Shown: positions 23,446-51,812 of the stretch, piece after piece
Layout: each line of letters begins with the position of its first letter
Position numbering within the stretch: the stretch's first letter is position 1
Assembly (NCBI GenBank): GCA_038040445.1
Contig: JBBPIG010000003.1
Span: forward strand, 1 to 64,000
Direction of reading: 5' to 3'
Length of the DNA stretch: 64,000 nucleotides
From: Acidobacteriota bacterium
Lineage (GTDB): Bacteria > Acidobacteriota > Blastocatellia > UBA7656
Translations under genes and position numbers: made by a program
Notes under the pieces: model-generated
Told to the model about the DNA's origin: nothing
What the model saw: only the letters and a program-made list of their open reading frames with translations
Databases searched by the model: none

Positions 23446-23814
23446 AGGAGAATTTCCTGCGGTACTGTCCGTTGCAAAGCAATAGCTGTCGATAGCTCTT
23501 CTTTGTCCTCTCAACAAATGAGGCAAGACCGATCTCTTGCGACTAATCGAGTGAGTCCGAGCGATAACCTGACTGGCTGCCTTAAGCATAACAGCTCGAT
23601 TAGTCTACCATACGCAGCGGCCTAACTTAAGGTTCTTGAGACTCAAGCCCAGGGATTAACGCCGACAGATTCGAAGTGGCTATCCTTGAGTTTTCGCGCA
23701 TTCTGAAAAGGTTCAGTGAAAAGTCGCGTTGCGCGACCGACGTGCGGTCGATTGCACGCGGACCCATGCTGGCGGCCGTTTCTGTGACCGAGTCCGAAAT
23801 CTCTAGAAGGTTTT

Positions 23815-23867: not shown

Positions 23868-24001
23868 CGGCGCGATCATTTTCGAGTAGCGGGTGTTCGG
23901 TGTCTGATATTTCTCATCACAAGCGCAATGCTTCATAGCTTGTAATCAGGCTGTACTGGTAATCATTTCCCGACGTTGGGTCATCGATTGTGAGGCGCGG
24001 A

Positions 24002-26341: not shown

Positions 26342-29300
26342 ATGAAAGTATCGAAAAATGCGCTCAAGCTTCTGTTGATCCTCGTGATCGTCGGCCTCTA
26401 CGGATTCTTCGTTCTTGCAGGCTCGATGACGAAGGCAGACTCGTCGAAGCGGCCGGCTGATTCGAACGGGGCCGACGCCTCCACACAGAATCCGCCAGCA
26501 ACGCAAACGGCGCGGCCGGTCCAGGCGGCCGGGCTGTTCGGCGAAAGCCCGGAAGAAGCCATGCGCCGAAGCGTAGGCTGCATCGATTGCCACAAAGGCA
26601 TAGAAGATATGCACAACGGGGTGATCAGCCTCGGCTGCATCGATTGTCACGGAGGAGATGCGAACGCTCGTGCGCAGGGCACGCAGAAAGGATCTGCCGG
26701 ATACGAGGGCGCTAAGAAAGCAGCGCACGTTAAGCCACGATTCCCCGACCGGTGGAAGACGTCTGCTAACCCTGAACGCCCTTACTCTCTCACGCTTGAA
26801 GAGAGCCCTGAGTTCATCCGGTTCGTGAATCCTGGCGACCTGCGCGTGGCGCAACTGAGCTGCGGCACAACGGAATGCCACTCCGGCGACGTGCATAATG
26901 TGAAGAAGAGCATGATGGCGACGGGCGCGATGCTCTGGGGCGCGGCGCTCTACAATAACGGAGCGTTCCCGTTCAAGAATTACAGATTCGGCGAAAGCTA
27001 CGGGCCGGATGGTAAGCCTCAGAGACTGCAGACCGCTCCGCAGCCCACCGCGGAAGAGACGCAAAAGAAAGGCATTCTCGCGTACCTTGAACCGCTCCCG
27101 CGCTGGGAGATGTCCCAGATGAGCAACATCCTGCGCACGTTTGAGCTTGGCGGGCGCAAGGCTGCTGAGATCGGGATTCCCTCTATCGAAGAGCCGCCCG
27201 GAAAACCGACGCAGAATCTATTGAGCCCGCGAGGACTTGGAACGAACCTGAGAACCGACCCGGTTTACATTGGCCTGCAAAAGACTCGCTTGCTCGATCC
27301 GATGCTGTCCTTCATGGGAACGAACGATCAGCCGGGAGATTACCGTTCGAGCGGCTGCACTGCTTGTCACGTCGTCTACGCGAACAACCGCAATCCATTT
27401 GAAGCAGGACCGTATGCGGCGCACGGCCACACGGGCGAAAGCGCGAGCGCCGATCCGACTATTCCAAGGGGCGAGCCCGGTCACCCCATCAAGCATCAGT
27501 TCACCAGGGCTATTCCATCAAGCCAGTGCGTAGTATGTCACATGCACCCGGGAACAACTGTGCTGAATTCTTACTTCGGCTCGATGTGGTGGGACCTCGA
27601 GACTGACGGCGAAGAGATGTACCCAAAGGAAGAAAAGAAACTCAGCGCCGAGCAACGCCGCGAGATTATTTTGCGCAACCCCGAAGAGTCCGCGCTTAGA
27701 GGCAAGTGGGGCGACGTCGAGTTCTTGAAATCGATTCGGGATGAAGTTAATCCGAAGCTCAAACACACCCAGTTTGCAGACTTCAACGGGCACGGATGGG
27801 TCTACCGCTACGTTTTCAAACATGATCGGAAAGGGAACCTGCTCGACGCCGGCAACAACGTCATCGCTGACGTAACCAATGAAAAGCTGCAGCGCGCAGT
27901 GAATGAGCCTGTTGGCGATGGTTCTTCGCGGGAGGGCGTGCCGGTTCACCTGAAGGACATTCACGAAGAGAAGGGGATGCACTGCGTGGATTGTCACTTT
28001 AAGCAGGACAATCATGGCGACGGAAAGCTCTACGGTGAAGTGCGCGCCGCTATCGAGATTGATTGCATTGACTGTCACGGGACGATTACCAAGCGGGCAG
28101 ATCCGACTTCGCGAGATGCATTGACCACTGCAGCCGCGGGCGGCAATCGCATGCTCGACTACCGGAATCTTCCTTCGCGCAAGGATCGGTTCTTCAAGAA
28201 GGACGGTAAACTGTTTCAGCGCGGGGCGGTCGCGAAAGACCAAGAAGGCAAGCCGCTCGTCTGGGAAGTAAGGCAGGTGATGGATAGCATCACGCCCGGA
28301 AACGAGCACTACAACGAGAAGGCCGCGCTCGCCAAGACGATTCTCAAGGACGGAAAGACCTGGGGCAGTGCGCCGAAGGATGACGTTCAGCTTGCGCACG
28401 CAAACAAGAGCATGACCTGCTTCACCTGTCATACCTCGTGGACGCCGAGTTGTTTCGGCTGTCACCTGAAGCAGACGGCGAACCAGCAGAAGCCGATGCT
28501 GCACAACGAAGGAACGGAGTCGCTGCGCAACTACTCGTCTTACAACTTCCAGACCTTGCGCGACGACGTCTTCTTGTTGGGTAAGGACGGCACGGTGACC
28601 GGACGGCGGGTGGCGCCGGTGCGTTCCGCCTGCGCGGTTTTTGTAAGCTCTCAGAATGCGAATCGCGAGTGGATTTACTCGCAACAGCAGACGGTCTCCG
28701 CGGAGGGATACAGCGGCATATCTTTCAGCTCGCACTTCCCGCATACCGTGCGAACGACCGAGACCAAAGGCTGCGCCGATTGTCACCTCTCTGAAAACAA
28801 CGATAACAATGCGTACATGGCAATGGCCCTGATGCAGGGAACCAACTTCTATAACTTCATCGGGCGATTCATGTACGTGGCGCAGAAAGAACACGGCTTT
28901 GAGGCAGTTGTCGTCACCGAGCGCGACGAGCCGCAAGCGGTCATCGGAAGCTCTTTGCACAAGCTGGCTTTCCCTGAGGAATACAAGAAGCATTTAGAGC
29001 TTAAGAAGGAACTGGAGGAGTTTTACGAGCATCCGGGCAACGACGTTGGCACGAACCTCACGCTATTCAAGAAGGAGAAGACCGAAGTCTTGATGCTGCA
29101 GCACCGAGGCGAGTTTCTATACGCGGCGACCGGCGAGGGCGGCCTCAGAGTCTACGATATAGCCAACGTGGATCAGAAGGCCTTCTCGGAGCGAATAACC
29201 ACGGCCCCGTTCTCGCCTCTCGGGCAGCGGCTCTATGTCAAAACGAAGTACGCGACCGCGGTGGCCACACCGTCGACCACAGCCGTCGATCCTACACGTA

Positions 29301-30475
29301 AGCACTATCCGCAGAACGAGGAATGGGAGAACCGCGACGACAAGCAGGGGATAAATCTGATTTATGCGTTCCTCTACGTCGCGGACAAGTATGAGGGGTT
29401 GGTCCTCGTAAATGTGGCCACGCTGCTGGATGGGAATCCGAGGAATAATTTCCTCAAGCGGGCGCTCACCTGGAACCCGAACGGAATTCTGAACGGAGCT
29501 AACAACATCACGGTTGCAGGCTCCCACGCCTACATAACCTGTGACCGAGGCCTGGTGGTCGTCAATATAAGCGACCCGCTCAAGCCTCGCGTTGTCGGCG
29601 AATTCGGCGCGCCGTTCATAAAGAACGCGCGAGCTGTTCAGGTGCAGTTCCGGTATGCGTTCGTGACCGACTCGGAAGGCTTGAAAGTCGTCGACGTGAC
29701 CAATCCTGATAGTGGGCGCGCGGTGAGCGGCGCAGTCGTGCCTCTTTCGGATGCTCATAATCTGTATCTGGTGCGCACCTACGCATACGTGGCGGCCGGT
29801 AAGCAGGGGCTGGCGATCATCGACATAGAGAATCCCGAGAAGCCCCGCCTCGATCAGATCTTCAACGGCGAAGGCGACATCAAAGACGCGCGCGACGTCA
29901 AGGTCGGCATGACGAATGTGAGCCTTTTCGCCTATATTGCCGACGGCGAGCACCATGCCATGCACGTCGTTCAACTGACTTCGGCCGAGCAGCCGGACAA
30001 CTATGGCTTCAGCCCGCGCCCGCGGCCTGAGCTTATCGCGAGCAAAGAGACGCTCGGCCCCGCGCTATCGATCTCGGAAGGCGTGGATCGCGACCGCGCG
30101 GTGGACGAGAGCGGCAACCAACTGTCCGTTTTCGGGCGCAGGGGCGCGAGGCCCTTCAACGCGGCCGAAATGCAGCGAATGTACATGATCAACGGCGCTA
30201 TGTTCACGGTTCCCAACATCAAGGACGGAAACAAGAAGGAGAACAAGGACATTCGCCGGTTCTTCGGCGCGCCAAAGACCTCGGACGGGGCGACCACCGA
30301 TTCGACGCCGAAGGTTGAACGCAAGAACGCGGATGAGACGAAGTCCGGGCAATCGAACGAGCCGAAGAGCCCCGCGAAGGAAGCGCGGATGCGTAACGCC
30401 GCCCAGTTGTCGAGCCTCGCCTTTATGTCATTGCCGCTCGCAGCCGTGTTGTTCCGGCGACGCAGACGACGATGA
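26342..30475 (+). CDS. Decahaem cytochrome c with LVIVD beta-propeller and C-terminal anchor
   Basis: A 1377-residue exported protein, the largest of the cluster. An N-terminal signal anchor ('[18 protein letters not shown]') is followed by nine CXXCH sites (CIDCH twice, CTACH, CVVCH, CVDCH, CIDCH, CFTCH, CFGCH, CADCH) spread over about residues 78-820. One further CX4CH site, C-G-T-T-E-C-H, lies near residue 180. The C-terminal third (about 920-1220) has LVIVD-type propeller repeats ('[11 protein letters not shown]', '[16 protein letters not shown]', '[12 protein letters not shown]', '[14 protein letters not shown]'). The chain ends with a short hydrophobic segment and six Arg ('[17 protein letters not shown]'), like C-terminal sorting or anchoring signals of the MYXO-CTERM/GlyGly-CTERM kind. 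I infer a surface-exposed electron carrier tethered to the envelope. Haem binding by the CX4CH site is unproven. Confidence 0.88.
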
Positions 30476-30541: not shown

Positions 30542-31060
30542 ATGAGACTGAAGCTGGCTGTTCTTATCACTTACGCGCTGGGCGTGGCGTTGCCCGTGGC
30601 TTTCGGCGCCGGGCTGTTCGCTAAGGCGGCCGAGCAACAGACAGAAAGCGGTTATGCGCCGAAGGTGATCAGGCTTGACGAGAAGGGAAGACGCGGCGTG
30701 GTCTTCTTCGATCACAAAGGCCACGAATCGCGCCTAAGCCCGGACTCGAATGCGCCACATCCGGCAAAGAAAGGGGCCGCGTGCTCCGGTTGCCATCACT
30801 CGATTAGCTCGAGGGGAATCCCGCAGTTGTACAAGTGCAACGTGTGCCATCACCGGAAGGACGGCGATCCGCGTAACCCAAAGAATCGAGAGTTCGATGA
30901 GGTGATGGCCGAAAGGGCATTTCACGATAGTTGTATCGAATGCCACAGGGTGGCCGAGAAGGGGCCCACGACATGCAGCGGCTGTCATAAGGCGGGAGTT
31001 CAGCCCGGCACTCTCGGCACAATAAGGGCGCTCGATAGTCAAGCTGGGAGCAACGATTAA
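30542..31060 (+). CDS. Periplasmic tetrahaem cytochrome c (class III-like)
   Basis: A 172-residue protein with a signal peptide ('MRLKLAVLITYALGVALPVA') and four CXXCH motifs (CSGCH, CNVCH, CIECH, CSGCH), two of them CXXCHH. It aligns along its whole length with the cytochrome part of the barrel fusion at 24002: shared 'GRRGVVFFDHKGHE'-type sequence, 'CSGCHHS' and 'AFHDSCIECHR'. The small size suits a soluble periplasmic shuttle between inner- and outer-membrane modules. It is separated from the decahaem gene by 66 bp and followed by a palindrome. Confidence 0.92.
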   Translation: MRLKLAVLITYALGVALPVAFGAGLFAKAAEQQTESGYAPKVIRLDEKGRRGVVFFDHKGHESRLSPDSNAPHPAKKGAACSGCHHSISSRGIPQLYKCNVCHHRKDGDPRNPKNREFDEVMAERAFHDSCIECHRVAEKGPTTCSGCHKAGVQPGTLGTIRALDSQAGSND

Positions 31061-31181: not shown

Positions 31182-32150
31182 TTGGCGATGTTGCGAGTCA
31201 AAAAGAGCATCTTCGCTTTGGCCTGCTTTCTGGCGGCGGGAATATACTTTGGGTTCCCGTCTCACGCAGAAGACGACGCCGCTGCGGCCAACGCCCAACG
31301 GCCGAGACGAGTCGGCGGCGAGCGCGCCACTTTCGATCACAAGCGAAAAGATCACGCCAAGGTCACTTGCAACGTCTGTCATCGGGTGACGCCGCAACAG
31401 ATGGAAGTCGTGTCGTTCCCGGCCCATCCGACGTGCGTCAGTTGTCACAACTTCGCCCAGGAGTTCTTCAAAAGGGGGGTCGCCTTCTGCGGCGTCTGTC
31501 ATCAGGGCGGGCCGACTTCAAAGATGAGTTCTGCGCTATTCGACTTCAAAGAGAAGACGAATAAGCTCCACGCCGTCCTCGGAAGCGATTTCGGCATAGA
31601 CTTTTCGCATCCGGCTCATCGTAAACCGCTGCCGGAGGATTTTGTGTTTCGGCCGGTCACTACGATCCCGTCTGACGCACCGCAGACCAAGCTTACCGCC
31701 GGGCAAACTGCCCGATGCACTGATTGTCATCAGAGGATCAAGAAGGCGAACGCCGGCGAAAATGAAATGACGATCGAGAAGGGCCACTCGACTTGCTTCC
31801 AGTGTCACGGCATCAAGCCCGATACCGCCGCTCGAGAAAAATTCCCGTACATGAACGACTGCAAAGAGTGCCACGAGATTGGCGGCCCAAAGGCTACGCA
31901 CCTGGCCTCGATTCGCGACTTCAGCCACGCCGACCACGAGTATGACATTCGCCCAAGAAGAAAAGTCGATTACCAAGTGAAGCGATCACCAGACTTTCTG
32001 TGCGCCGAGTGTCACAAGTCCGTGGACCAGGCGAAGAAACTTACGGACATACGGATGCCTGAAGAGACCACTTGTGGAGCATGTCACAGCGGCCGGTTAG
32101 GGCTCCCCGACGCTTTGGCTCGTGATGTATTGGATAAGCTGAGACAGTAG
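31182..32150 (+). CDS. Periplasmic octahaem cytochrome c
   Basis: A 322-residue exported protein with signal sequence 'SIFALACFLAAGIYFGFPSHA' shortened by cleavage after Ala. It has eight CXXCH motifs (CNVCH, CVSCH, CGVCH, CTDCH, CFQCH, CKECH, CAECH, CGACH). Additional His residues in 'ATFDHKRKDHAK', 'IDFSHPAHRK' and 'RDFSHADHEYD' are likely distal ligands, a pattern of cytochrome c7/class III-type multihaem carriers. Start choice: GGAGG (31172-31176) lies 5 bp from TTG 31182 and 11 bp from ATG 31188; I keep the TTG but either is possible. It is followed after 23 bp by the nonahaem lipoprotein gene. Its role is inferred as a periplasmic electron bridge. Confidence 0.88.
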   Translation: MAMLRVKKSIFALACFLAAGIYFGFPSHAEDDAAAANAQRPRRVGGERATFDHKRKDHAKVTCNVCHRVTPQQMEVVSFPAHPTCVSCHNFAQEFFKRGVAFCGVCHQGGPTSKMSSALFDFKEKTNKLHAVLGSDFGIDFSHPAHRKPLPEDFVFRPVTTIPSDAPQTKLTAGQTARCTDCHQRIKKANAGENEMTIEKGHSTCFQCHGIKPDTAAREKFPYMNDCKECHEIGGPKATHLASIRDFSHADHEYDIRPRRKVDYQVKRSPDFLCAECHKSVDQAKKLTDIRMPEETTCGACHSGRLGLPDALARDVLDKLRQ

Positions 32151-32173: not shown

Positions 32174-33067
32174 ATGAGAAACGACACTACGAGAAGGCTG
32201 AAACTTATCATCACCTGCGCGGCGGCGATTCTTGTCATCGGCGGGCTGGCCTGCAAAAGCTCAAAGCAGCCGACCGCCAACAAGGCCGCTGAAACGCCTC
32301 AGCCCGCGCCTCAAACGGCTGCCCCGTCACCGTTCGATGTAAAAGAATCCGTGGTGATTGAGCGCACCTCACCCTTCAATCACACGCGCGCCGAGCACCA
32401 GACAAAGACAAAGGATTGCGCCTTCTGCCATCAGCGTTTGGACAACAGCGTCACGCCGGTGTTCCCCGGCCACTCGGCTTGCATAGAATGTCACGCAAAA
32501 GATTTTACAAATACATCGAGTCAAATGTGCGTCGTATGTCACAAGGCTCCAGTTGACGCTCAAGGGACAAGAATAAGTTTTCCGGGGAAGATGAGTGAGT
32601 TCGGCGTCAAAGGGTTCTCGCACAAACAGCACATGGACCCGAAGAAGATGGCTGGCGAGACTGAGACTCCGAAGTGCAGCACCTGCCATCAGTCTACCGA
32701 ACGTGCCGCGGCGAGTTTTCCGAATCATCAGCAGTGCTATAGCTGCCATGTTCATCAAACAAATCAGAAGTTCGGCGAGTGCGGGGTCTGTCACGCCGAC
32801 ACAAAGCTCGCTTTGAAGTTCACAAGGGGTACCGGGTCGGCATTGGGCTTATATAATTTCAAGCACGGGCCTCATACGAAGAAGGCAAGTTGCGATAGAT
32901 GCCATCACCAGATCGAAACCGCGCCGAAACAGGTGCGCGCTGATATTCAGACGATCAGCGCCGGGCGAGGTCAGCGTCATACCTCGGCCTGTTGGAGCTG
33001 CCACGTTCAGGCTAAAGAGTCTGTTTGCACGAAGTGTCACCGCGGTTCCCTGCCGTTTTCCTTTTAG
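32174..33067 (+). CDS. Nonahaem cytochrome c lipoprotein
   Basis: A 297-residue protein with a lipoprotein signal: hydrophobic 'LIITCAAAILVIGGLAC', whose 'GLAC' is a good lipobox, then a Lys/Ser/Pro-rich linker. Nine CXXCH motifs follow: CAFCH, CIECH, CVVCH, CSTCH, CYSCH, CGVCH, CDRCH, CWSCH and CTKCH. Paired His in 'SPFNHTRAEHQ', 'FSHKQHMD' and 'FKHGPHTK' precede haem sites as in class III cytochromes. The lipid anchor could place it on the inner face of the outer membrane next to the barrel fusion, or at the inner membrane. A palindrome begins 8 bp after its stop codon and a promoter-like sequence follows, which may end the first transcription unit. Confidence 0.92.
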   Translation: MRNDTTRRLKLIITCAAAILVIGGLACKSSKQPTANKAAETPQPAPQTAAPSPFDVKESVVIERTSPFNHTRAEHQTKTKDCAFCHQRLDNSVTPVFPGHSACIECHAKDFTNTSSQMCVVCHKAPVDAQGTRISFPGKMSEFGVKGFSHKQHMDPKKMAGETETPKCSTCHQSTERAAASFPNHQQCYSCHVHQTNQKFGECGVCHADTKLALKFTRGTGSALGLYNFKHGPHTKKASCDRCHHQIETAPKQVRADIQTISAGRGQRHTSACWSCHVQAKESVCTKCHRGSLPFSF

Positions 33068-33263: not shown

Positions 33264-33284
33264 CTTTGTCGCCGGGTGAGCCGT

Positions 33285-35723
33285 ATGCCGAAAGAACAAA
33301 AGAGCCGTCGCGAAGTCATTAATGCGATCAAGACCCTTCCAGCCATCTCTGCTCTTATGTCCGCGCACGACGGTCACTACGACTATGAGCTCGATCTCGA
33401 AGTCACGGTATACGGGCGCAACTACGGTGGCAAGAAGGTAGGTCCCTACTTCCGCCTGCTGAACTATGAGCCCGGAGAGGCGGTTATGGTTCAGGGGGAA
33501 TGGGGCGGCAACACCTTGTTCTTCCTCGTCGCCGGCGCTCTGGAAGTCTACGTCCGGGCGCCCAACGAGCAAGACGTGAAAGTCGCGGAGTTGACGCCGG
33601 GCACTCAGTTCGGAGAGATGAGCGTGCTGGCGGGCGTTCCTCGCAACGCCACTATCAAAGCGCCGCCGGACAAGCCCGCCCAGGTCCTCGAGATTCACCG
33701 CCCGGCGTTGCGTCTGCTTCGCAAGCTCCCCAAGTTTGGCGAGAACCTCGACAACACATATCGAACTCACGGCAGAGATGCCGCGCTTGAAAGCCTCAGA
33801 CTCACCGGCGGGCTGACCCCCGAAATGACGAGCGAGCTGCGGGGTTATTCCTTGTTCCGGGTGTTCGCGAAAAACCATGTCCTTTTCCGCGAGAATGAGC
33901 GAGTCAATCGAGTCTACATCATTAAGGAGGGATGGGCGCGCCGGACGCAATCAGTGTCAGGCAGAGAGGTCGAAGACTTCGTGGGTCACGGCTTCTGCTT
34001 TGGTCTCGAAGGCGCTGTGAAAGATTCAAGCTGGCCTTACACCGTGACGCTGATGGGCCGCACTGAAGTCGTTGAAATATACACCTCGAAACTGCGTGAG
34101 AGACATGCGCTCAGAGAAGCGCTGCTCAAAGTGCTCGGCACCAGTGTGCCACCCGCAATCGGCTCTTTTGTTAACTACAAGCCTGCTGTTCACGACGCGA
34201 TGCTCGCCGCTCAGGAGAGGCTCATCGAGACGGGGCTCGTGGACGGAACCAATCTGCTGGTGATGGACATGGACCTGTGTGTTCGCTGCGGCAATTGCTC
34301 GCTCGCGTGCCACAAGATTCACGGCCAATCCAGACTCATGCGCAGAGGCGTTCACGTCACCCGCCTTGAAGCCCCTCGCGCGAGTGCCGTTCAAAGCGTG
34401 CTTTCGCCCGAGGTCTGCATGCATTGCGCGGATCCCGAATGCTTGACCGGCTGCCCGACCGGGGCGATCGGCCGATTCGATCTGGGTCAGGTCGATATCG
34501 ATCCCAAGACGTGCATCGGATGCGGCGACTGCGCGACCCAGTGTCCTTACAACGCGATATCGCTGGTCCCGCGCAGACCGAAAGCCCCTGCTCCAGGCGC
34601 CGTCAGTTTCAAATCGAAGCTTCAGGAATTCCTGAGAATCAAACCCGATCCGATTCCGCCGCCGGTTGACACTACCGAAGACCTCGTTGCGATCAAATGC
34701 AACCTGTGCAGCGACCGCACGTCGATGAACCCTCCGGGCGCAAAGACCCGAGCGTACAGTTGTGAAGAGAACTGCCCCACGGGAGCGCTCGCGCGCGTCA
34801 GGCCGCGAGAATATTTCACCGAGATCGGCCAGATCGAAGGCTTGCTGCTGGTCGATAAGACTCATGCCTACGGGCGTAACATACACAAGTCCGATCCGCC
34901 GAAACGCTTGATTCATTTGGCAGGCATATTGTTCACCGTGCTGGCGACCGCCGCAACAATCTTCGGACTACAGCAATATGGACTGGGCGAGCGCATCTTC
35001 AGCTTCCTGAACATGCGCTGGATCACGGGCATAGCCGGCCTCGTTGGAATCGCGGCGGTGATGACTTATCCGGTGAGGCGGCAGATCTACACCAAGCGCG
35101 TAGGGCCGCTGCGCTATTGGATGCTGGCGCACGCTTATGTGGGAATAATCGCGGGGATGTTGATCCTGCTGCACGGCGGCACTCATTCCGGGGGCGCGCT
35201 CACCACTGCGCTAATGGTCTGCTACGATCTGGTCATCTTCACTGGCATACTGGGAATCTTTATCTACTTTTTCGCGCCTCGAAAGCTCACGAAGATTGAA
35301 GGCACGCCGCTCCTGATCGATGATCTAAAAGACCGGCGCGAGGAGTTGCGGAAGGAGATTGCGGAGATCGGCGGCCAGGCAGCCGGACCGCTTCAAAGCA
35401 TCGTGAAGGACAAAGTGGTGCCGCGTTTTGTCTCGTTCGGTTTTCTGTTGCGGCAGTTTCTCGGCCGAAAAGATCTGGACGAGATGGTTGAATCAGCAAA
35501 GGCGGGATTCAACCAGGAGCGGGCAAGTCTGGCGAACGAGAAAGACCGGCACAAGTTGGATCGCGCCATCGAAGCCGCCGCGACGCTGCGCCGAATTGAC
35601 GCGTTGATCTATCTGCATCGCTCGTTGAAAGTGTGGCTGCCGCCGCACGTGGCGACCACTGCCTTGATGCTGGCGTTGATGATCGTTCACATCATACAAG
35701 TTGTTTACTATGCCGCGCGGTAG
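33285..35723 (+). CDS. cNMP-binding, four-cluster Fe-S and cytochrome b-like membrane fusion protein
   Basis: An 812-residue protein in three parts. (1) Two cyclic-nucleotide-binding folds: the first (about 50-145) keeps a full phosphate-binding cassette 'FGEMSVLAGVPRNAT'; the second (about 185-285) has lost the Arg-Ala part ('FGLEGAVKDSSWPYT'). (2) A DMSO-reductase-B/HybA-like electron-transfer domain (about 330-500) with four Cys groups: CVRCGNCSLACH, CMHCADPECLTGCP, CIGCGDCATQCP and CNLC...CEENCP. (3) About five membrane helices (from about 542) with His suited to b-haem ligation in 'LAHAYVGIIAGMLILLHGG' and 'HVATTALMLALMIVHIIQ'. Start ATG 33285 has GGGTGA at ideal distance. I infer a quinol- or ferredoxin-linked electron entry gate responsive to a cyclic nucleotide. 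No signal peptide, so the sensors and clusters are cytoplasmic. Confidence 0.87.
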   Translation: MPKEQKSRREVINAIKTLPAISALMSAHDGHYDYELDLEVTVYGRNYGGKKVGPYFRLLNYEPGEAVMVQGEWGGNTLFFLVAGALEVYVRAPNEQDVKVAELTPGTQFGEMSVLAGVPRNATIKAPPDKPAQVLEIHRPALRLLRKLPKFGENLDNTYRTHGRDAALESLRLTGGLTPEMTSELRGYSLFRVFAKNHVLFRENERVNRVYIIKEGWARRTQSVSGREVEDFVGHGFCFGLEGAVKDSSWPYTVTLMGRTEVVEIYTSKLRERHALREALLKVLGTSVPPAIGSFVNYKPAVHDAMLAAQERLIETGLVDGTNLLVMDMDLCVRCGNCSLACHKIHGQSRLMRRGVHVTRLEAPRASAVQSVLSPEVCMHCADPECLTGCPTGAIGRFDLGQVDIDPKTCIGCGDCATQCPYNAISLVPRRPKAPAPGAVSFKSKLQEFLRIKPDPIPPPVDTTEDLVAIKCNLCSDRTSMNPPGAKTRAYSCEENCPTGALARVRPREYFTEIGQIEGLLLVDKTHAYGRNIHKSDPPKRLIHLAGILFTVLATAATIFGLQQYGLGERIFSFLNMRWITGIAGLVGIAAVMTYPVRRQIYTKRVGPLRYWMLAHAYVGIIAGMLILLHGGTHSGGALTTALMVCYDLVIFTGILGIFIYFFAPRKLTKIEGTPLLIDDLKDRREELRKEIAEIGGQAAGPLQSIVKDKVVPRFVSFGFLLRQFLGRKDLDEMVESAKAGFNQERASLANEKDRHKLDRAIEAAATLRRIDALIYLHRSLKVWLPPHVATTALMLALMIVHIIQVVYYAAR

Positions 35724-35772: not shown

Positions 35773-38700
35773 ATGGCTACTAAGAGTCGTTTCATCATAA
35801 AGCGAAGAGACAAGTCGGTCGACGACATCCTCCTCGAAAGTGAAGGGCTGACCATCGGCCGGCTTACCGGCAATGACCTGGCGCTCAATAACCGCGCGGT
35901 CTCTCGCACCCACGCCGGGATAAGAGAGTTCAACGGCGAGTACTGGATCTTCAATCTGTCTGAATCAAACGGCACCGTGCTCAACGGCTGGCTCGTGGAC
36001 AAGACGCCGCTGTTGGACGGCGATGTTATTCAGATAGGTCCGTACTCTCTGCTGGCCAATTACGCTCAGGGGGCGTTGTCGCTCACTGTCCAGATAGATA
36101 CCGAAATCCATCCGGTCGAGGGCGGCGCGACCCGCATGCTGTTTGAAGAGGATCTGGGCAAGACGGTGATGGTTCAGATTCCCGCGGGCGTCAAGAAGCA
36201 GGCGGTTGCGCCCGGCGGCACCGAGAGATTTCAATTGGGAACGGGCCTGTTCAGCGCGGTGCCACCCGCGCTTGATCAGCAGGCGCTCAACGTTTTCTGG
36301 GACAAGCGAAAAAGAGAGGCGGGAAAGATTGCTCCGCAAAGCCTGCTTCATCCGAGAACCAACAAGAAAGTCGGCAAAGCGCAATTCAACTGGCGTCCCT
36401 CCCTCGATCTGCGGCGAATCTGGCGCAAGTCATATTTTTACTGGGGCGCCGGCGTTGTCGCGCTGCTCTCTATCATCGCAGTGATTATCTACGAGAACGC
36501 TTATTCGCCGGGCCCGGTCTCGTTGGCTCATACCTCGTCGCAGATGTCTGCCCGCGCGATTGCCCTAAAGCCAAATGAAAACTCCTGCTCGAATTGTCAT
36601 GGCGTGAGCGAAGGCATGCAGGACAAGTGCGTCACTTGTCATACGACGCCGGCAAATCAAACGGCGCCGGCATTCCTACCCGTCGTCTTCGACAAGCACG
36701 CTCGCGAAAACATCGGCTGCACGGGTTGCCATGTCGAGCACAGAGGCGCGAGCTCCGACTTTGGACTCAAGAGCAACCAGCTTTGCTCGAACTGCCATAA
36801 CGGGAGCTACACCATCAAGACCGGCGACAAGACGGGACAGGCCTTGCCCGTCGCACACGGCGGCACGGTAGGCTATCCGGTGACCAACGGCAAGTGGGCT
36901 AAAATGCTGGATGCCGATCAACTTCGGGTGAGGGACCTCCCCGACACATGGGCGGGGCCAACCTTTGATTCAAATCGCCAGTTCCACTCCATTCATCAAC
37001 TCGGCCGGATGAACAACCGGATGAGCTGCAAAGACTGCCACACCTCAGGGGTGCGCGGTGAAGCGAGCTTCCGCGACTCGCCGAAGGCCGAGTGCGCTAA
37101 GTGCCACGACCTCGTCGCCGGCGCGACAGGCACGCAACGCGTCCAGGCGAATTGCTACACGTGCCATCGGCAGCACGGACGCAGCGAAGACCTGTTGCAG
37201 CTTGTGGCTGAGGCAAAAGACGATCGGAGGATCAAAGAATACTTCAACAAAATCGATAGCGGCAAAGATGAAGTCGGCAAGCGATTGGCGACGGCCAGCG
37301 AGAATCTGTTTTCGGGTGTTGGCGGCGCAGACCAGATCCGCCAGGACAAAGACACTCTGAGCGCGACCGTGCTTTCATCCTTCGGCGGGTTGCCGTGGTA
37401 TGGTTGGGTCGGACTGGTCGGAATCCTGCCGATTGCGGGTCTCGCGGTGATGGCGGTTGGAACCGTGCGCCGCAAATACTCCTTGCAGAATGTAAAAGCG
37501 GACGCCGCGCCGAACGAGAACGAGGTAGCAAGAGCGCTCACAGGCGTGCTCGATCTGGAGAAGCTGAAAGCCGAGGAGGCTCCGTATCCGCATCCGGTCA
37601 TAAACCAGGCGACCTGCATAGGCTGTCACGCTTGCGTGGAAGCCTGTCCGCACGACGTGCTTGCGATAGTCAACGGCGTCTCAACGCCCATCAATCCCGA
37701 TCAGTGCATGGAAGACACCAGTTGCCAGGTCGAGTGCCCCACTAATCCGAAGTCGTGCGTCGTCATCAACACCAAGAAGAAAATCCCAGAGAGAAAAGTC
37801 CCGAAGCGAGACCAGCGATTCAAGACCAATGTCGAAGGTATCTACCTGATCGGAGATGTGTCCGGCGTTCCTCTGATCAAGAACGCGATCAACGAGGGCG
37901 GCACGGTCATCGATTCCATTGCCGAAGACATCAAGAAAGAAGGCGCCAACGGCAAAGCTGAGTACGATGTCGCGGTCGTCGGCATCGGACCGGCGGGGTT
38001 GTCGGCTGCGGTTATTGCCAAACAACGCGGTTTGAAATACATCGCCATCGAGCAAGACAAGATAGTGGCCACCATCCAACAGGTCTATCCCGCGGGCAAG
38101 TATGTTTTCTTCAAACCCGACACAGTTGAGACGAAAGGCGGCATCCCGCTCCCGGGCCCCGGCGACTCGAAAGAGAACATGCTCAAGGGCTGGCTCGGTG
38201 CGATGATGTCGAACGGCGTCGTCATCAACGAAGAGGAAAGCTGCAAAGACATAAAACCGGAAGACGGGGTCTTCACCCTCACAACCGAGAAGGGAAAAGC
38301 CAAAGAGAAAGCCACCTACAAGGCTCGCAAGATCATCATCGCGATCGGCAATCGCGGCACGCCAATGAAGCTTCGAGTGCCGGGCGAGGACCTCAAGGTG
38401 ATGATGACGCCGCCGCCCATAATCCCAAAGTTCTGCCCGGGCTGCGGGTCGGGCCGCAAAGGCGCGCAGCAGTTCTGCGTCGTGTGCGGCGCGCCGTATC
38501 CGGTCAAGAATCAGCCCGCTTACGAAACGGGCAAAGTTCAATTCAAGCTCTCCGACCCCGATGACTACGTAAACAAGAAATGCATAATCGTGGGGGCAGG
38601 GAATTCGTCCATAGAATCCGCGGTTGATCTGGCCGGACTCAAGCGCGACGGCGAAAAAATCACTTTCACCCGCAACAACGATGTGACCCTGGTCGTCCGC

Positions 38701-38943
38701 AGCGATTTCAAGGGGGACCTCAAGCTTGGCAACAAGATGAACGTCTACGACTGCATTGACGCCGGGAAGATCAAGGTCTTCTTCCGAACCGAGATCAAAG
38801 AAATCACACAAAACGAAGTCGTGCTTATGGATGTGCGAAGCAAGGAAGAGAAAGCGCGGCTCGCCAACGATTTTGTGTTTGCGCTGATTGGCGGCGAGAA
38901 GCCGACGAAGTTTTTAGAGGGGTTGGGGATCAAAGTAGGATGA
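35773..38943 (+). CDS. FHA-heptahaem cytochrome c-ferredoxin-flavin reductase fusion
   Basis: A 1056-residue single chain. Residues of about 1-100 form an FHA phosphopeptide-binding domain ('IGRLTGNDL', 'SRTHAGI', 'SESNGTVLNG'). A transmembrane helix (about 222-241) leads to a periplasmic segment with seven CXXCH sites (about 272-465: CSNCH, CVTCH, CTGCH, CSNCH, CKDCH, CAKCH, CYTCH), and a second helix (about 541-563) returns to the cytoplasm. There follow a ferredoxin domain (CIGCHACVEACP at about 615, then a second Cys group), a segment with 'VEGIYLIGDVSG', and a YpdA-like FAD/NAD(P) oxidoreductase (FAD motif 'VVGIGPAGLSAA' about 733, NAD motif 'IIVGAGNSSIES' about 937). A CPGCG...CVVCG zinc ribbon (about 888-905) is inserted. 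Topology permits electrons from NAD(P)H to cross to periplasmic haems, or the reverse. The GDVSG segment normally follows the NAD domain, so the flavin fold looks circularly permuted. Confidence 0.85.
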   Translation: MATKSRFIIKRRDKSVDDILLESEGLTIGRLTGNDLALNNRAVSRTHAGIREFNGEYWIFNLSESNGTVLNGWLVDKTPLLDGDVIQIGPYSLLANYAQGALSLTVQIDTEIHPVEGGATRMLFEEDLGKTVMVQIPAGVKKQAVAPGGTERFQLGTGLFSAVPPALDQQALNVFWDKRKREAGKIAPQSLLHPRTNKKVGKAQFNWRPSLDLRRIWRKSYFYWGAGVVALLSIIAVIIYENAYSPGPVSLAHTSSQMSARAIALKPNENSCSNCHGVSEGMQDKCVTCHTTPANQTAPAFLPVVFDKHARENIGCTGCHVEHRGASSDFGLKSNQLCSNCHNGSYTIKTGDKTGQALPVAHGGTVGYPVTNGKWAKMLDADQLRVRDLPDTWAGPTFDSNRQFHSIHQLGRMNNRMSCKDCHTSGVRGEASFRDSPKAECAKCHDLVAGATGTQRVQANCYTCHRQHGRSEDLLQLVAEAKDDRRIKEYFNKIDSGKDEVGKRLATASENLFSGVGGADQIRQDKDTLSATVLSSFGGLPWYGWVGLVGILPIAGLAVMAVGTVRRKYSLQNVKADAAPNENEVARALTGVLDLEKLKAEEAPYPHPVINQATCIGCHACVEACPHDVLAIVNGVSTPINPDQCMEDTSCQVECPTNPKSCVVINTKKKIPERKVPKRDQRFKTNVEGIYLIGDVSGVPLIKNAINEGGTVIDSIAEDIKKEGANGKAEYDVAVVGIGPAGLSAAVIAKQRGLKYIAIEQDKIVATIQQVYPAGKYVFFKPDTVETKGGIPLPGPGDSKENMLKGWLGAMMSNGVVINEEESCKDIKPEDGVFTLTTEKGKAKEKATYKARKIIIAIGNRGTPMKLRVPGEDLKVMMTPPPIIPKFCPGCGSGRKGAQQFCVVCGAPYPVKNQPAYETGKVQFKLSDPDDYVNKKCIIVGAGNSSIESAVDLAGLKRDGEKITFTRNNDVTLVVRSDFKGDLKLGNKMNVYDCIDAGKIKVFFRTEIKEITQNEVVLMDVRSKEEKARLANDFVFALIGGEKPTKFLEGLGIKVG

Positions 38944-39157: not shown

Positions 39158-39928
39158 GTGAGAATCAGACTTCTGCCGAGCAGCGCCGGACGCCAGTCGC
39201 AACTCCAGTGTTTGACCTCATTCATCATCGACGAACGAGTGGCGATTGACGCGGGCAGCATAGGGTTCGCGTTCTCTCCGGGTGAGATCGGCACCGTCCG
39301 CCATATCATCGTCACCCACTCGCACAGCGATCACACCGCTTCCTTGCCGATATACGTAGCCGAAGCATTCAATGTGCTCAACGATCCAATCATCATCTAC
39401 GGCAGTATTGAAGTGATAACAGTGCTCAGGCAACACGTCTTCAACGATCACGTGTGGCCGGACTTCGAAAAGATTCAGCTCAACAACGGCAGCGGACCCA
39501 CGGTTGAATTTCGCGAGCTCGAGGCGAGACAGACATTGAACATCGCCGGCATTGACGTGACGCCGATTCCGGTCAATCACCTCGTACCGACTTTCGGGTT
39601 GCTGGCGCAGAACGAAGTGGCAGCCGTGCTGTTCACTTCCGACACCTATAGCACCGACGAAATTTGGGAGGTGGCGCGGGAGGCTGTGCACTTGAAAGCA
39701 GTCTTTGTCGACGTTTCGTTTCCGAATGAGATGGGCGAGCTGGCTGCGGCGTCGAAGCACCTTACGCCGGAGTTGTTGGCCGTTGAGTTGAAGAAGCTCA
39801 AGCGCGAGGTTGAGGTTTATGCGGTCCACATCAAGCCGACGAACCGTGAAGAGGTGATAAAGCAAATCGCTGCGCTCGACAATCCAAGGGTTTCGGTCGG
39901 CGAAATTGACCGCGTTTATGAGTGGTAA
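39158..39928 (+). CDS. Metallo-beta-lactamase-fold protein, class II cAMP phosphodiesterase-like
   Basis: A 256-residue cytoplasmic protein with the metal site 'VTHSHSDHTASLPIYVAEAF' (about 51-70), a second His in 'VNHLVPTFG' and 'FTSDTY' later on. The stretch around HxHxDH with following Thr/Ala-Ser-Leu resembles class II cyclic-nucleotide phosphodiesterases (yeast PDE1/CpdP) more than lactamases or RNase Z, and the insert 'RQHVFNDHVWPDF' fits that family. The GTG start has GGAGG 9 bp upstream. It lies 12 bp before the nucleotidyl cyclase gene, so one transcript would carry both the synthesising and the degrading enzyme. RNase Z-like or other MBL hydrolase activity cannot be excluded. Confidence 0.75.
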   Translation: MRIRLLPSSAGRQSQLQCLTSFIIDERVAIDAGSIGFAFSPGEIGTVRHIIVTHSHSDHTASLPIYVAEAFNVLNDPIIIYGSIEVITVLRQHVFNDHVWPDFEKIQLNNGSGPTVEFRELEARQTLNIAGIDVTPIPVNHLVPTFGLLAQNEVAAVLFTSDTYSTDEIWEVAREAVHLKAVFVDVSFPNEMGELAAASKHLTPELLAVELKKLKREVEVYAVHIKPTNREEVIKQIAALDNPRVSVGEIDRVYEW

Positions 39929-39940: not shown

Positions 39941-41584
39941 ATGCCTGCAAAGATTGTCATTAAGAATTCCGAATCTGGGCACTCGTTTGAGTTCGATCTC
40001 ACGCGAGATGAGACCCAAATTGGGCGCTCTGCCGATAACAACGACGTCGTGCTTGAGGAGAGCCAGGTCTCGCGTCAGCACGCAGTAATCAAACGGAACC
40101 GCCAGGCTTTTACGCTCGTCGATCTGAACAGCGCTAACGGCACGTTCATGAACGGGCAGCGCGTTAAAGAGCACCTGCTGCGAAACGGCGACTCGTTTTC
40201 GATAAGCAAGTTCACGGTCGAATTCAAAGATGCTGCGGAGTCGCCTTCGGTCAGGTACTCGAGCCGCGAGATCGAAGGTACGATGGTGATGCGAACCCCT
40301 AGCGAAATAATGTCGGTCATCCCGCGGATGGACAAGTCGGCGATATCTCAGGCTGACCCGGGTGCGAAATCCGTTTTGGGTTACGTCGAGGTGCTGAGGA
40401 AGAAGGCCGAGACGCTGGCGCGCATTTACGAGCTGAACCAGATGCTCGGGTCGGACTTCTCTCAGGAGGACATATTCAGGAAGGTCAGCGAGATGGTCTT
40501 TCGCTTGACACCGGCGGATCGCTTCCTGGTGTTGCTGAAGGATTCGGATAGCGGCGAGCTATCGACCGTCGCCGCCGAGTTCCGCAACCCCGGCAGTGCG
40601 CAGGCGGGCGCCCAGGTCACCATCAGCAAGACGGTCGTGGATCGTGTGATCACCGAGCGGATTTCGGTGCTGTCGTTCGACACGCTCTCGGACCAGCGCT
40701 TCGTGGAGGCCAAGTCAATCGTGATGCAAAACATCTCTTCGGTGATGTGCGCACCGCTGCTCAGAAAGAACGATGTACTGGGAGTCATTTATGTTGATTG
40801 CCAGGAGACGATGAAACTGCTCAGAGAAGACGACCTCGATCTGTTGAATGCGGTGGCGGCTGAGACGTCTATCGCCGTGGACAACGCTCTGACTCACAAG
40901 CGGCTGGTTCGCGAAGAACTCGCGCGCGCGAAGTACCGCCGCTTCATGCCGCCTCACGTCGTCGACGAGATTCTTAAGAGCCCCAACACGCTTCTCCTCG
41001 GCGGGACAAACAGCTGCATAACGGCGCTGTTTTCCGACATTCGCGGCTTCACCTCTATGTCCGAGAAGTTGAAGCCTCAGGTCGTGGTTCAGATCCTCAA
41101 CGAGTATTTCGCGGACATGACCCCCATTGTTTTCGACCACCAGGGACTGCTGGACAAGTTCATGGGAGACGGGTTGATGGCGCTGTTCGGAGTCCCATAC
41201 GCCTGTGACGCTGCGGCGTCGAATGCCGTGGCTGCGGCGATTGCGATGCAGCGCCGGATGACTATGGTGAATGACGACCTGAGAGCGTTGGGGCTGTCGG
41301 AGATCGCCATCGGAATCGGTGTCAACACGGGAACCGCGACGGTCGGCTACATCGGATCCAGGGATCGAACTGACTATACAGCGATCGGCGACGCCGTGAA
41401 CCTCGCCGCTCGGCTTGAGAAACGAGCAGGCGCCGGGCAAATAATAATTAGCCGCTTCACGTTTGAAGCGATAGGCGACGGATTTGCGGTGAAACCGTGC
41501 GATCAGATAATGGTCAAGGGTAAGCAGGAACCCGTTCAAATATACGAGGTGCTCTGGCAAGAAGCTAGCGAGTCGCCGGGTTAG
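39941..41584 (+). CDS. FHA-GAF-class III adenylate/guanylate cyclase
   Basis: A 547-residue cytoplasmic signalling enzyme. An FHA domain (about 1-95: 'IGRSADNNDVVL', 'SRQHAVI', 'NSANGTFMNG') is followed by a GAF domain (about 155-315, ending 'AAETSIAVDNA') and a class III cyclase domain (about 345-545). The metal-binding Asp pair is present in 'FSDIRGFTSM' and 'KFMGDGLMALFG'. The purine-specifying positions are Lys in 'LDKFMGD' and Thr in 'DYTAIGDAVNLAAR', which points to ATP, hence cAMP. The transition-state Asn and Arg of 'AVNLAARLE' are intact. Its FHA domain suggests input from a Ser/Thr kinase (none is encoded here); GAF could sense a ligand. Its stop overlaps the convergent MscS gene by 4 bp. 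Confidence 0.92.
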   Translation: MPAKIVIKNSESGHSFEFDLTRDETQIGRSADNNDVVLEESQVSRQHAVIKRNRQAFTLVDLNSANGTFMNGQRVKEHLLRNGDSFSISKFTVEFKDAAESPSVRYSSREIEGTMVMRTPSEIMSVIPRMDKSAISQADPGAKSVLGYVEVLRKKAETLARIYELNQMLGSDFSQEDIFRKVSEMVFRLTPADRFLVLLKDSDSGELSTVAAEFRNPGSAQAGAQVTISKTVVDRVITERISVLSFDTLSDQRFVEAKSIVMQNISSVMCAPLLRKNDVLGVIYVDCQETMKLLREDDLDLLNAVAAETSIAVDNALTHKRLVREELARAKYRRFMPPHVVDEILKSPNTLLLGGTNSCITALFSDIRGFTSMSEKLKPQVVVQILNEYFADMTPIVFDHQGLLDKFMGDGLMALFGVPYACDAAASNAVAAAIAMQRRMTMVNDDLRALGLSEIAIGIGVNTGTATVGYIGSRDRTDYTAIGDAVNLAARLEKRAGAGQIIISRFTFEAIGDGFAVKPCDQIMVKGKQEPVQIYEVLWQEASESPG

Positions 41585-42972
41585 CTCAGGCCGAAGAACC
41601 GCTGGATGCGCCGAAGAATGGCATTCCTCTGAACGTGCTTCTCCTGTTCCGGCACCGCGCGGGCGTACTCATCGAGTCGTGTCTGACGCTCCGCTATCAT
41701 GAGGCTGAGCCCTTCGGCCAGCGCGGCGTTGTCGTCCAGCAGCCGCTGTAGAATCCCTTTGGTGATCTCGAGAGTCTCGACTTCGTTGACCGCAATCACA
41801 TCTGCGTTCCTCGGCTCACCCGTTAGCAGGGCCATTTCTCCAAAGAAGTTTCCCGGCTTAAGCTCCGCCACTTGTTGTGCGTGACCGTCGCCGCTTGGTA
41901 GCCGCACTTCAACGTTGCCACGATAGATGACAAACATTGAATCGCCCGGAGCGCCGCGCCGCAGTATCAACTCGCCGGGAGCATATACGGCCTTGATGGC
42001 CGACCGCGCTACGGCCTCTTTCTCCTCGGCTGAGAGCGGCGCGAAGATTTCTACCGACCCGATGACCTTGTCGTAAGCGTCTTCTTGAGGCGTGACCAGC
42101 GGTTCCTGCTGCTCGAGCAAAACGTGGCGAATGGGGAAAGGAATCTCGATATCGTTGCGCCGATAGATGTACCACATGTGCTGTCTTATCGCAGCATCGA
42201 TATCGTGAATCCACAGGTAGTCTTTGACCCAGTAGAGAATCTCGTAGACGATGCTCGAGTCTCCGAAGTCGCCCATTCGAACGACCGGCGTCCTCTCGCT
42301 GGCCACGTTGGGGATCGATGCCACTGTTTCCCGTATCAGTCTGATGACTTTCTGCGGCGGGATGCGGTAGGGCGCTGGGACGCGCAGGATTCGCCGGTTC
42401 AGATTGTTGAAGCGGAAAACCTCCAGCGGCTCGCGCGCAACTTTGCTGTTGGGGAAAATGATTGTCGTGTTGTCGTTGGTTCGGATGGTAGTAGTGCGCC
42501 AGGTGAGCGCTTCGACTCGCCCGAGCATGTCCTGGATTCGAATAGCGTCGAGGACGTGAAACGGCTGTTCGATGTGTATCGACAGCCCGGCAAAAAAGTT
42601 CCCCAGCGTGTCCTGAAGCGCAAGTCCGATGATGACCGAGAAAATAGTAGACCCCGCGACGAACCCCAATCCGCCGCCTTCCGGTTTCCAGACCAATCTG
42701 TAGATCAGCAGAAAGAAGACCAAATAAAGCACCACTGATAGAAGGACGCGCAACAGTTGAGGCGCATCGCGGCCGCTGCGCCGCTTAAAGACGACGTCGA
42801 ACAGCACGACCCCGATCGCCCGTACGAGCGCCATGCTCAACACGGCAAGCATAGCAGTGAGCAGGTATATCGAGACGTTCGGGCTGATCAGGCCGGGCCT
42901 TAGCCACTCGATAGCGGCGTATACGAGAAGTAGCAGCAGGCTAATGGTAAGCGGAAGGGTTATTCGCTTCAT
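41581..42972 (-). CDS. MscS-family mechanosensitive channel with C-terminal cNMP-binding domain
   Basis: A 463-residue inner-membrane protein. Four N-terminal hydrophobic segments (for example 'TLPLTISLLLLLVYAAIEWL') lead into the MscS pore helix and beta domain ('VIIGLALQDTLGNFFAGLSI', 'EQPFHVLDAIRI', 'FPNSKVA'). The last 150 residues are a cyclic-nucleotide-binding fold with an intact phosphate cassette 'FFGEMALLTGEPRNADV'. Related cyclic-nucleotide-gated MscS channels (bCNG) are known; gating by cAMP is therefore plausible. The frame extends to a TTG at 43011, but ATG 42972 starts cleanly before the first helix. It faces the cyclase gene tail to tail with a 4-bp overlap. Confidence 0.92.
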   Translation of the reverse strand: MKRITLPLTISLLLLLVYAAIEWLRPGLISPNVSIYLLTAMLAVLSMALVRAIGVVLFDVVFKRRSGRDAPQLLRVLLSVVLYLVFFLLIYRLVWKPEGGGLGFVAGSTIFSVIIGLALQDTLGNFFAGLSIHIEQPFHVLDAIRIQDMLGRVEALTWRTTTIRTNDNTTIIFPNSKVAREPLEVFRFNNLNRRILRVPAPYRIPPQKVIRLIRETVASIPNVASERTPVVRMGDFGDSSIVYEILYWVKDYLWIHDIDAAIRQHMWYIYRRNDIEIPFPIRHVLLEQQEPLVTPQEDAYDKVIGSVEIFAPLSAEEKEAVARSAIKAVYAPGELILRRGAPGDSMFVIYRGNVEVRLPSGDGHAQQVAELKPGNFFGEMALLTGEPRNADVIAVNEVETLEITKGILQRLLDDNAALAEGLSLMIAERQTRLDEYARAVPEQEKHVQRNAILRRIQRFFGLS

Positions 42973-43080
42973 TGCTCGTGAATGGTACTGCGGCCCAAGC
43001 TCAAAGGCCAAGCGTAGCGCGTGGCTTGCTTCTAAGGTACCTATCGGGCGGAAACAGGCCGCCGCGGCCGGCGCGGCGTT

Positions 43081-43332
43081 TTAGGCCGTTCGTCTGCCGG
43101 TGCGCGAACGAGAACCGGGTTTCGTGAGACGCGCAAGAGTGCGCAAAGCCTCGTTGACGGCGCGAGCATTGGGAAAAACTTCTGCGACGTCAGGGTCTAG
43201 CAACACGAGATTGCTGCCTTCCGCGTACCGTGCCGCGGTGACTCCACGGACGGCTTTCGAGAAATCATATTCTTGGCGCATTGTGTCTGCGTCGACGCTG
43301 CGGGCGGGCGCTTTCGTCTTAGCCTTCCTCAT
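43081..43332 (-). CDS. Small antitoxin-like protein without a partner
   Basis: An 83-residue protein with the pattern 'EYDFSKAVRG' followed by 'YAEGSNLVLLDPDVAEVFP' and 'AVNEALRTLARL'. This matches a very common short bacterial family often found next to RelE/HigB-type or DUF4160 toxins and regarded as an antitoxin. The Arg/Lys-rich N- and C-termini are extra. No toxin-like frame is found on either side: the 43-bp gap upstream leads to opcA and downstream is the MscS gene. Probably an orphan antitoxin or a DNA-binding regulator. Confidence 0.65.
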   Translation of the reverse strand: MRKAKTKAPARSVDADTMRQEYDFSKAVRGVTAARYAEGSNLVLLDPDVAEVFPNARAVNEALRTLARLTKPGSRSRTGRRTA

Positions 43333-43375
43333 AGCTTCTTCTTTCAGAACGCGTCGACTGACAACCGAGAACTGA

Positions 43376-44518
43376 CTACTCTTTCAATGCCTTGATCAGC
43401 TCTCCCGCCGCCAGCACCGCCTGCTCGTACACCCGGTCGTGACCCAGGATCTCGATCTCTTTTCCGACTAGTTCGCTCTCGCTCAGACCTTCATAGCTGA
43501 GCACTCGCTGCACGCGCATTTCTTCGCCCCGGGCCATCGACGTCTCGATGCGCTTGCCGTCTGCGCTCCTCCTGACGGTGAACACTACCGACTGCTCCGC
43601 CTTGCTTCTCAAGGTCACCAGCGCGAGGTGCCCCGGTTCGATCTCGCGCTGCGTGTGCCTGAACTCGACCCGAATCTTTCGGCCCTCCGCCGAGCACTCA
43701 AAACTCGTCGAGTCCGGAGATCGCTCGGCGGCGTCAGGCTGAACCGTCCAACGCAGGCGGCTTACAAGCCACCCGCCGAGCAACATAGCCCTTGGCGGGA
43801 TCGCCGATTTGTCAGCAAGCGGAGGCGCGTATTCGATGTCAACCTGGTCGAACTGGTCGAGCAACGGGCGATAGTCCAACACGTCATAAAACCCCGCGAG
43901 CAGCGCGCGCCATGCTGTCAGCCGGGCCCAGTTCAAGTCGCTTACCGCAGTCCACCGCGGCGTATCGCGAAGCAATGCTGCCATGCTTGCGATGTCACGC
44001 TCCGGATCATTAAACAATGCGGAGTCGATGATCACTCGATCTGAAATGTCGGCCAGCTTTCGGAACAGCGATTTGTCCAGAATGCGCGGCTCGGCGCGCC
44101 ACCAGAGGTATACGGGCAAATCCGAGAGCAGCAACGGGGTGACCGCGCTGGGCAGGTCGGCCCTCCCGTCACCGGCGGCCGTGATGGTCACCTGTTCGCA
44201 ACAAACCTGCTTTGATGTGCCGGTCGGCAACGTGCACCGTGAAGTCACCTGCGCTTCGAGCCTCGCCTCGGCAGCCCCACGGTCGGCAATCATCAAGACA
44301 GCCCGGCTCGGATGCGAAGCGGTTATGCCGGTGAGCAGATCGTCGATCTCAGCCGCGACCGAGGTGTCCGGCACGTAGACAAGCAGGTTTAGAATCGAAG
44401 AGCGAATGACGCCCTGATCTTCGTCGGCGGAAGCCTGCTGCCACAACGCGGTCAGCTCGCGCTCGAGCGCTGCGACGTCAATCCAGGAGCCAGACGGCGG
44501 TACAGTTGAAGTGCTCAT
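43376..44518 (-). CDS. opcA: Glucose-6-phosphate dehydrogenase assembly protein OpcA
   Basis: A 380-residue protein of the OpcA family, an activator/assembly partner of G6PD first described in cyanobacteria and Actinobacteria. Family marks are the conserved beginning 'WIDVAALERELTALWQ', 'ASHPSRAVLMIADR', 'CCEQVTI' and 'LPVYLWWRAEP'. The start codon ATG at 44518 overlaps the TAA of zwf by one base (TAATG), which indicates translational coupling and agrees with a physical partnership. A longer frame upstream would run through zwf and is rejected. It is the last gene of the pentose-phosphate operon. Confidence 0.93.
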   Translation of the reverse strand: MSTSTVPPSGSWIDVAALERELTALWQQASADEDQGVIRSSILNLLVYVPDTSVAAEIDDLLTGITASHPSRAVLMIADRGAAEARLEAQVTSRCTLPTGTSKQVCCEQVTITAAGDGRADLPSAVTPLLLSDLPVYLWWRAEPRILDKSLFRKLADISDRVIIDSALFNDPERDIASMAALLRDTPRWTAVSDLNWARLTAWRALLAGFYDVLDYRPLLDQFDQVDIEYAPPLADKSAIPPRAMLLGGWLVSRLRWTVQPDAAERSPDSTSFECSAEGRKIRVEFRHTQREIEPGHLALVTLRSKAEQSVVFTVRRSADGKRIETSMARGEEMRVQRVLSYEGLSESELVGKEIEILGHDRVYEQAVLAAGELIKALKE

Positions 44519-46050: not shown

Positions 46051-46066
46051 GTAGGTTCCTCAGATT

Positions 46067-46151: not shown

Positions 46152-46155
46152 CAGT

Positions 46156-51808: not shown

Positions 51809-51812
51809 AGTG

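Follow-up and report, generated by a model that had tools for sequence, protein, structure and literature searches.

The gene at 33276..35723 (+) of the window, the whole 64-kb stretch of DNA analysed here, encodes a protein in which two cyclic-nucleotide-binding (CNB) domains, a ferredoxin region with the cysteines for four [4Fe-4S] clusters and a diheme-type cytochrome b follow one another in one chain (open reading frame, PF00027 and Fer4 families, 50-row alignment). We hypothesise that this core protein and a partner with FHA, 7-haem, Fe-S and FAD-NAD(P) parts, together referred to as the bridge, form an electron bridge from NAD(P)H to periplasmic cytochromes that is gated by a cyclic nucleotide at the first CNB site, a proposal to which we give about an even chance. 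A second messenger may, in this way, gate electron flow towards the cell surface.

In the proposed mechanism the core protein would be the cytoplasm-facing Fe-S and diheme-b half of the transmembrane bridge. Electrons would pass from NAD(P)H to FAD, to Fe-S, to the four [4Fe-4S] clusters, to the two b haems and on to seven periplasmic c haems. A cyclic nucleotide, most likely cAMP, would bind at site 1 only, and site 2, with Trp or Phe in the position of the Arg, would have a fixed structural or coupling role. Occupation of site 1 would shift the CNB pair on the Fe-S module so that electron flow is opened or closed, and the cyclase and phosphodiesterase encoded in the same gene row would set the nucleotide level in this lineage.

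Domain structure of the core protein and its partner

The core reading frame gives 815 amino acids if translation starts at GTG 33276 and 812 if it starts at ATG 33285, the start chosen in the initial annotation, and the latter fits the homologues, most of which start with MP. Pfam finds two cNMP_binding stretches (PF00027, E 1.3e-28), both above the curated cut-off, together with several 4Fe-4S families. CNB domain 1 (33462..33713, +; 56.3 bits) carries its cassette, FGEMSVLAGVPRNAT, at residues 113-126 (33612-33653), with Glu114 and Arg123, and CNB domain 2 (33858..34100, +; 51.8 bits) carries the cassette FGLEGAVKDSSWPYTVT at residues 243-256 (34002-34043), with Trp253 (34032-34034) in the Arg column. 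The DmsB/NrfC/HydN-like ferredoxin region that follows (34263..34790, +) has NrfC/DmsB-type chains as its top sequence matches, and its 16 cysteines form four groups, at positions 335/338/341/345, 381/384/389/393, 413/416/419/423 and 475/478/496/500. All 16 are invariant in the 50 rows of the close set, which consists of the core protein and 49 Blastocatellia homologues with identities of ~45-68%, and conservation at such identities excludes a chance pattern. In the wider set of 70 rows, 20 of them distant proteins, 14 of the 16 are Cys throughout and the last two are Cys or a gap. All 25 of the NCBIfam matches listed fall below the equivalog cut-off for a named subunit (DsrO, for example, reaches 61.9 of 200 bits).

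The C-terminal end consists of five hydrophobic segments by hydropathy (34905..35720, +) and has the appearance of a five-helix cytochrome b region, with no cytochrome family matched in Pfam or NCBIfam. Among the conserved histidines of the core protein (547, 619, 633, 781, 791 and 805), His619 (35130) and His633 (35172) are 14 residues apart, as are His791 (35646) and His805 (35688), which gives His-x13-His in two helices, and these four are invariant in all 25 aligned cytochrome b sequences, 20 of them distant. We take the paired motif, by analogy and from the sequence pattern, to mark two b haems stacked across the helix bundle. Loop charges suggest that the CNB and Fe-S parts face the cytoplasm. 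The core protein has no CxxCH, so that c haems and the membrane part do not share a polypeptide.

In the AlphaFold2 model the CNB pair is most like the tandem CNB domains of PKA-R and PKG (Foldseek, E 4.5e-14), and it superimposes on the single CNB domain of MloK1 with a VIA Z of 14.5 and an rmsd of 2.4 over 128 aligned residues. The model is good for the CNB pair only; confidence is below pLDDT 50 in the Fe-S region and 50-80 in much of the membrane part, so no coupling geometry or surface can be read from it. It placed no cytochrome b fold in a search in which at least a fifth of the matches listed span residues 9-295 only and the other parts were barely probed.

The partner (35773..38943, +; 1056 aa) is made up, from Pfam, transmembrane prediction and CxxCH positions, of an FHA domain, a transmembrane helix, seven periplasmic CxxCH motifs, a further transmembrane helix, a ferredoxin dicluster and an FAD/NAD(P) module. 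A count of eight haems was rejected, as the CIGCH at residue 615 belongs to the ferredoxin motif. Of 55 loci 7 are cut, and in the other 48 its gene is always the next one downstream of the core gene. Residues 888-905 (38434-38487) form a zinc-ribbon-like four-Cys insert, CxxC-x10-CxxC, between the FAD and NAD(P) parts, and the insert is found in loci L007 and L077 too.

The two nucleotide sites in close and distant relatives

The cassette Glu and Arg presumably contact the ribose-phosphate of the nucleotide. At site 1 the Glu114 column holds E in 48 and Q in one of the 49 Blastocatellia rows, and the Arg123 column R in 47 and H in two, whereas at site 2 Arg is found in none of 50 rows (W 44, F 6) and the Glu is also displaced or changed. 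The initial annotation had described tandem CNB domains, the first with an intact cassette and the second without its Arg, on four Fe-S clusters and b-type membrane helices; the domain pair, the intact cassette, the clusters and, as a sequence pattern, the b-type helices are all confirmed by the alignments, but the loss at site 2 extends beyond the Arg. The pairing of a canonical with a non-canonical site on a 4x[4Fe-4S]/diheme-b chain is, moreover, clade-wide. The position that follows Arg123 holds N 18, S 18, A 6, T 5, R 1 and I 1, a distribution that allows no assignment of cAMP versus cGMP.

Relatives of the core protein are found in 36 of 58 related genomes. In the class, 76 of 162 genomes have one (E 1e-100), and in the phylum, with distant types included, 46 of 396 (E 1e-30). 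We examined the loci of 20 of the 28 distant matches. In all 20 cytochrome b has a gene of its own, which overlaps the CNB-FeS gene or comes next to it downstream, and in 19 this gene is followed by one for a 9-10-haem c, the twentieth locus ending at a contig edge. In seven of the 20 loci FAD, both CNB domains and the 4Fe-4S part are found in a single chain (Rosetta-stone fusions). Lineages thus join the same protein parts in different ways, the usual sign that such parts act as one complex. A homologous FAD-CNB-CNB-FeS gene is also present on Sphingobium plasmids, in 12 close records that we count as one event; in the two records inspected it is followed by a cytochrome b, a multihaem c, with 10 CxxCH in the single record where they were counted, and then a calcineurin-like phosphoesterase.

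In a 69-row tree the distant relatives form types I-III, each set apart by a branch with full support. Type I (the FAD-CNB-CNB-FeS fusions, 7 rows) and type II (5 rows) have Arg at both sites, 12/12 together, and type III has Arg at neither site in 8/8 sequences (Q/V at site 1, W/Y/F/S at site 2) and keeps the Fe-S, cytochrome b and c genes. Since type III has lost both Args and still keeps the machine, the latter can do without nucleotide binding. If Arg is ancestral to the CNB domain, the clade of the core protein would have lost the Arg of site 2 and kept that of site 1, a direction of change read from a tree that is unrooted and has long inner branches. The aromatic residues at site 2 of type III and of the core protein's clade may be parallel changes. 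In the type III loci (L148, L150-L155 and L158) the CNB-FeS proteins keep GE though both cassette Args are gone, and these proteins may bind another ligand.

We extend the hypothesis, a little short of an even chance, to NAD(P)H-to-cytochrome complexes found phylum-wide and beyond the phylum, gated by a nucleotide bound to the chain itself, with lineages that have two, one or no sites. The natural series Arg/Arg, Arg/aromatic and none/aromatic makes the gating idea open to test by comparison.

Predicted cyclase and phosphodiesterase genes beside the proposed bridge

After a gap of 214 bp the partner gene is followed by a gene for an MBL-fold protein, a putative class-II cAMP phosphodiesterase (39158..39928, +; PF02112, 66.8 bits against a cut-off of 23.7), in which the metal motif HxHxDH is present as HSHSDH at residue 54; in NCBIfam the protein stays below the equivalog cut-off for cyclic-nucleotide phosphodiesterases (27.9 of 400 bits). 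Next comes a predicted FHA-GAF-class III adenylate cyclase (39941..41584, +; PF00211, 93.4 bits), one of only two PF00211 genes in the 6.7 Mb genome. All six of its catalytic positions are present (D366, K406, D410, T480, N487 and R491), presumably the two metal Asp, the Lys/Thr adenine pair and the Asn/Arg; among 29 orthologues T480 is identical in 28 and the other five in all 29.

Cyclase and phosphodiesterase share the gene row of the bridge in G000, G001 and G005 only, which rules out cyclase linkage as a general feature of the bridge; in these three close relatives it is plausibly one event, the cyclase being encoded apart from the bridge elsewhere. In G002 and G004 the downstream region has a phosphodiesterase gene without the cyclase, ~3-5 kb from the partner. 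In 14 of the 30 cyclase loci examined the phosphodiesterase gene immediately precedes the cyclase, and because 11 of these pairs lie away from the bridge, the two form a class-wide pair whose joining to the bridge was a lineage event. Class III cyclase domains 6-9 kb from the bridge in L041 and L156 were judged incidental. Over 58 genomes, 34 have both cyclase and bridge, 2 the bridge only, 14 the cyclase only and 8 neither (Fisher p 0.004), a co-occurrence that carries little weight, since the genomes are not independent by descent and a single family accounts for five of the ten without a cyclase. G023 and G040 have the bridge and no PF00211 match, in a search that covered class III cyclases.

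The Sphingobium phosphoesterase is nearest to SpdA and CpdA (132.6 and 78 bits, both under cut-off), and its fold differs from the MBL phosphodiesterase fold of the window. That two unrelated phosphodiesterase folds occur beside the same machine is our best, if indirect, support for control by a cyclic nucleotide. Together with the class III cyclase in the same row as the cAMP-phosphodiesterase-like MBL gene, it makes the allosteric control suggested in the initial annotation plausible. One may object that the CNB pair is a structural scaffold, a dimerisation module or a binder of some other ligand, and that the bridge works as a plain NAD(P)H:cytochrome c reductase, free of second-messenger control. 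The type III clade, intact apart from both Args, would fit such a view, as would the rarity of cyclase linkage and the two genomes with a bridge and no class III cyclase. Also against gating are the two Blastocatellia rows with His and the one with Gln in the site 1 cassette, the 14 genomes with a cyclase and no bridge, and the gap of 214 bp ahead of the phosphodiesterase gene. We nevertheless consider the scaffold view unlikely, given the strong retention of the site 1 Glu and Arg in ~50 divergent sequences, the Arg at both sites of every type I and II sequence, and the two phosphodiesterase types that adjoin the bridge. If gating by cyclic nucleotide is true, a bacterium could use cAMP to throttle trans-envelope electron flow within seconds and without transcription, and in a widespread phylum phospho- and small-molecule signalling (FHA, GAF) could be coupled to respiration in the periplasm or outside the cell.

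A second possible cyclic-nucleotide target is encoded on the other strand, an MscS-type channel with a C-terminal CNB domain and an intact GE...PRNA cassette (41581..43011, -). A CNB-bearing, MscS-CNB-like stretch, and so a second CNB effector at such a position, also stands beside the phosphodiesterase-cyclase pair of L180 (5968-6252, G038). The channel gene belongs to a minus-strand row convergent with the operon (41581-54770), which continues with OpcA, G6PD, two 6-phosphogluconate dehydrogenases and a transaldolase-PGI fusion; this oxidative pentose phosphate cluster would supply NADPH beside the NAD(P)H-using bridge.

Proposed electron route and known systems

Five cytochrome genes, all on the plus strand, lie upstream of the core gene within the window. 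The first (23990..26305) encodes a candidate porin-cytochrome fusion, with an N-terminal tetrahaem part (4 CxxCH, PF02085) and a putative C-terminal outer-membrane beta-barrel; 18 long strands are predicted in a model whose mean pLDDT is only 46.6, and the top Foldseek PDB matches are AlgE/OprD-type porins (E 4.8e-13). It is followed by a large multihaem cytochrome with LVIVD repeats (26342..30475; 9 CxxCH and one CX4CH), which has a partial likeness to ExtM (85.8 of 800 bits), by a tetrahaem class III-type cytochrome c (30542..31060), and by two multihaem cytochromes of the c7 type, the first with 8 CxxCH (31182..32150) and the second with 9 CxxCH and a lipoprotein-like N-terminus (32174..33067). 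A promoter and terminator scan showed no decisive operon break: promoter-like sites number 5, with 2.9 expected, and terminator-like sites 14, with 8.8 expected. The minus-strand gene that immediately precedes the cytochrome operon (20854-23589, -) encodes a caspase-like Peptidase_C14 protein with a PEGA domain. The candidate fusion, its outer-membrane location being predicted, points to a trans-envelope route, in which electrons from the seven periplasmic c haems would pass to the small multihaem cytochromes and from these to the porin-cytochrome at the outer membrane. According to one report on wastewater Acidobacteriota, most multihaem cytochromes of the genomes studied there have no known substrate (PMC8100337).

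The initial annotation spoke of a control of electron entry, which is better read as passage, more likely outward, because electron exit from NAD(P)H is at least an equal match to the attached FAD-NAD(P) and multihaem partners. A different role would be that of a CbcL-like quinol:cytochrome c oxidoreductase, or the reverse, with menaquinone as the electron-exchange partner of the b haems and with the Fe-S and FAD parts feeding or tapping the quinone pool. A diheme b beside a multihaem c resembles CbcL as described in PMC6295460, and H547 and H781 are extra conserved histidines in the core protein's clade. The invariant FAD/NAD(P) partner and the Rosetta fusions, however, put a pyridine-nucleotide site in the machine, and we regard such a role as improbable. 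Electrons from an extracellular donor need an input of energy to reach the NAD(P)+ potential, and no donor-oxidising enzyme was identified among the window proteins scanned. An inward flow from such a donor to NAD(P)+ or ferredoxin is accordingly very improbable, even if outer-membrane cytochromes and b haems are able to work both ways and Fe(III) reducers and Fe(II) oxidisers alike have CbcL/MtrH/MtoC homologues (PMC6295460).

For the CNB-CNB-4x[4Fe-4S]-diheme-b architecture no describing paper was found in open-licence PMC text, as judged by title, start of abstract and term counts, and the outward, nucleotide-gated bridge that we favour is best placed by comparison with its parts. CbcL, MtoC and MtrH are inner-membrane cytochromes of extracellular electron transfer with a diheme b membrane part and a periplasmic multihaem c (PMC6295460). 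The bridge resembles them in this combination, its b haems being a sequence pattern, but has the b and c parts on two proteins and adds four Fe-S clusters, FAD-NAD(P), FHA and CNB domains. The four-cluster ferredoxin subunits DmsB, NrfC and HydN share the 16-Cys pattern and are the best sequence relatives of the Fe-S region, which, unlike theirs, is fused to CNB domains and a cytochrome b; no molybdoenzyme was identified among the neighbouring proteins scanned. The tandem CNB regulators PKA-R and PKG and the bacterial fusions MloK1 and Rv0998 share the CNB fold and the canonical site 1 cassette, whereas in the core protein the CNB pair is joined to a redox membrane effector and site 2 has no Arg. 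Finally, the Sphingobium 'cyclic nucleotide-binding domain-containing protein' of NZ_CP020539 has the same module order, with cytochrome b, cytochrome c3 and phosphoesterase genes, and carries Arg in both cassettes. It differs in having FAD fused to the CNB-FeS chain, a separate cytochrome b and another phosphodiesterase fold.
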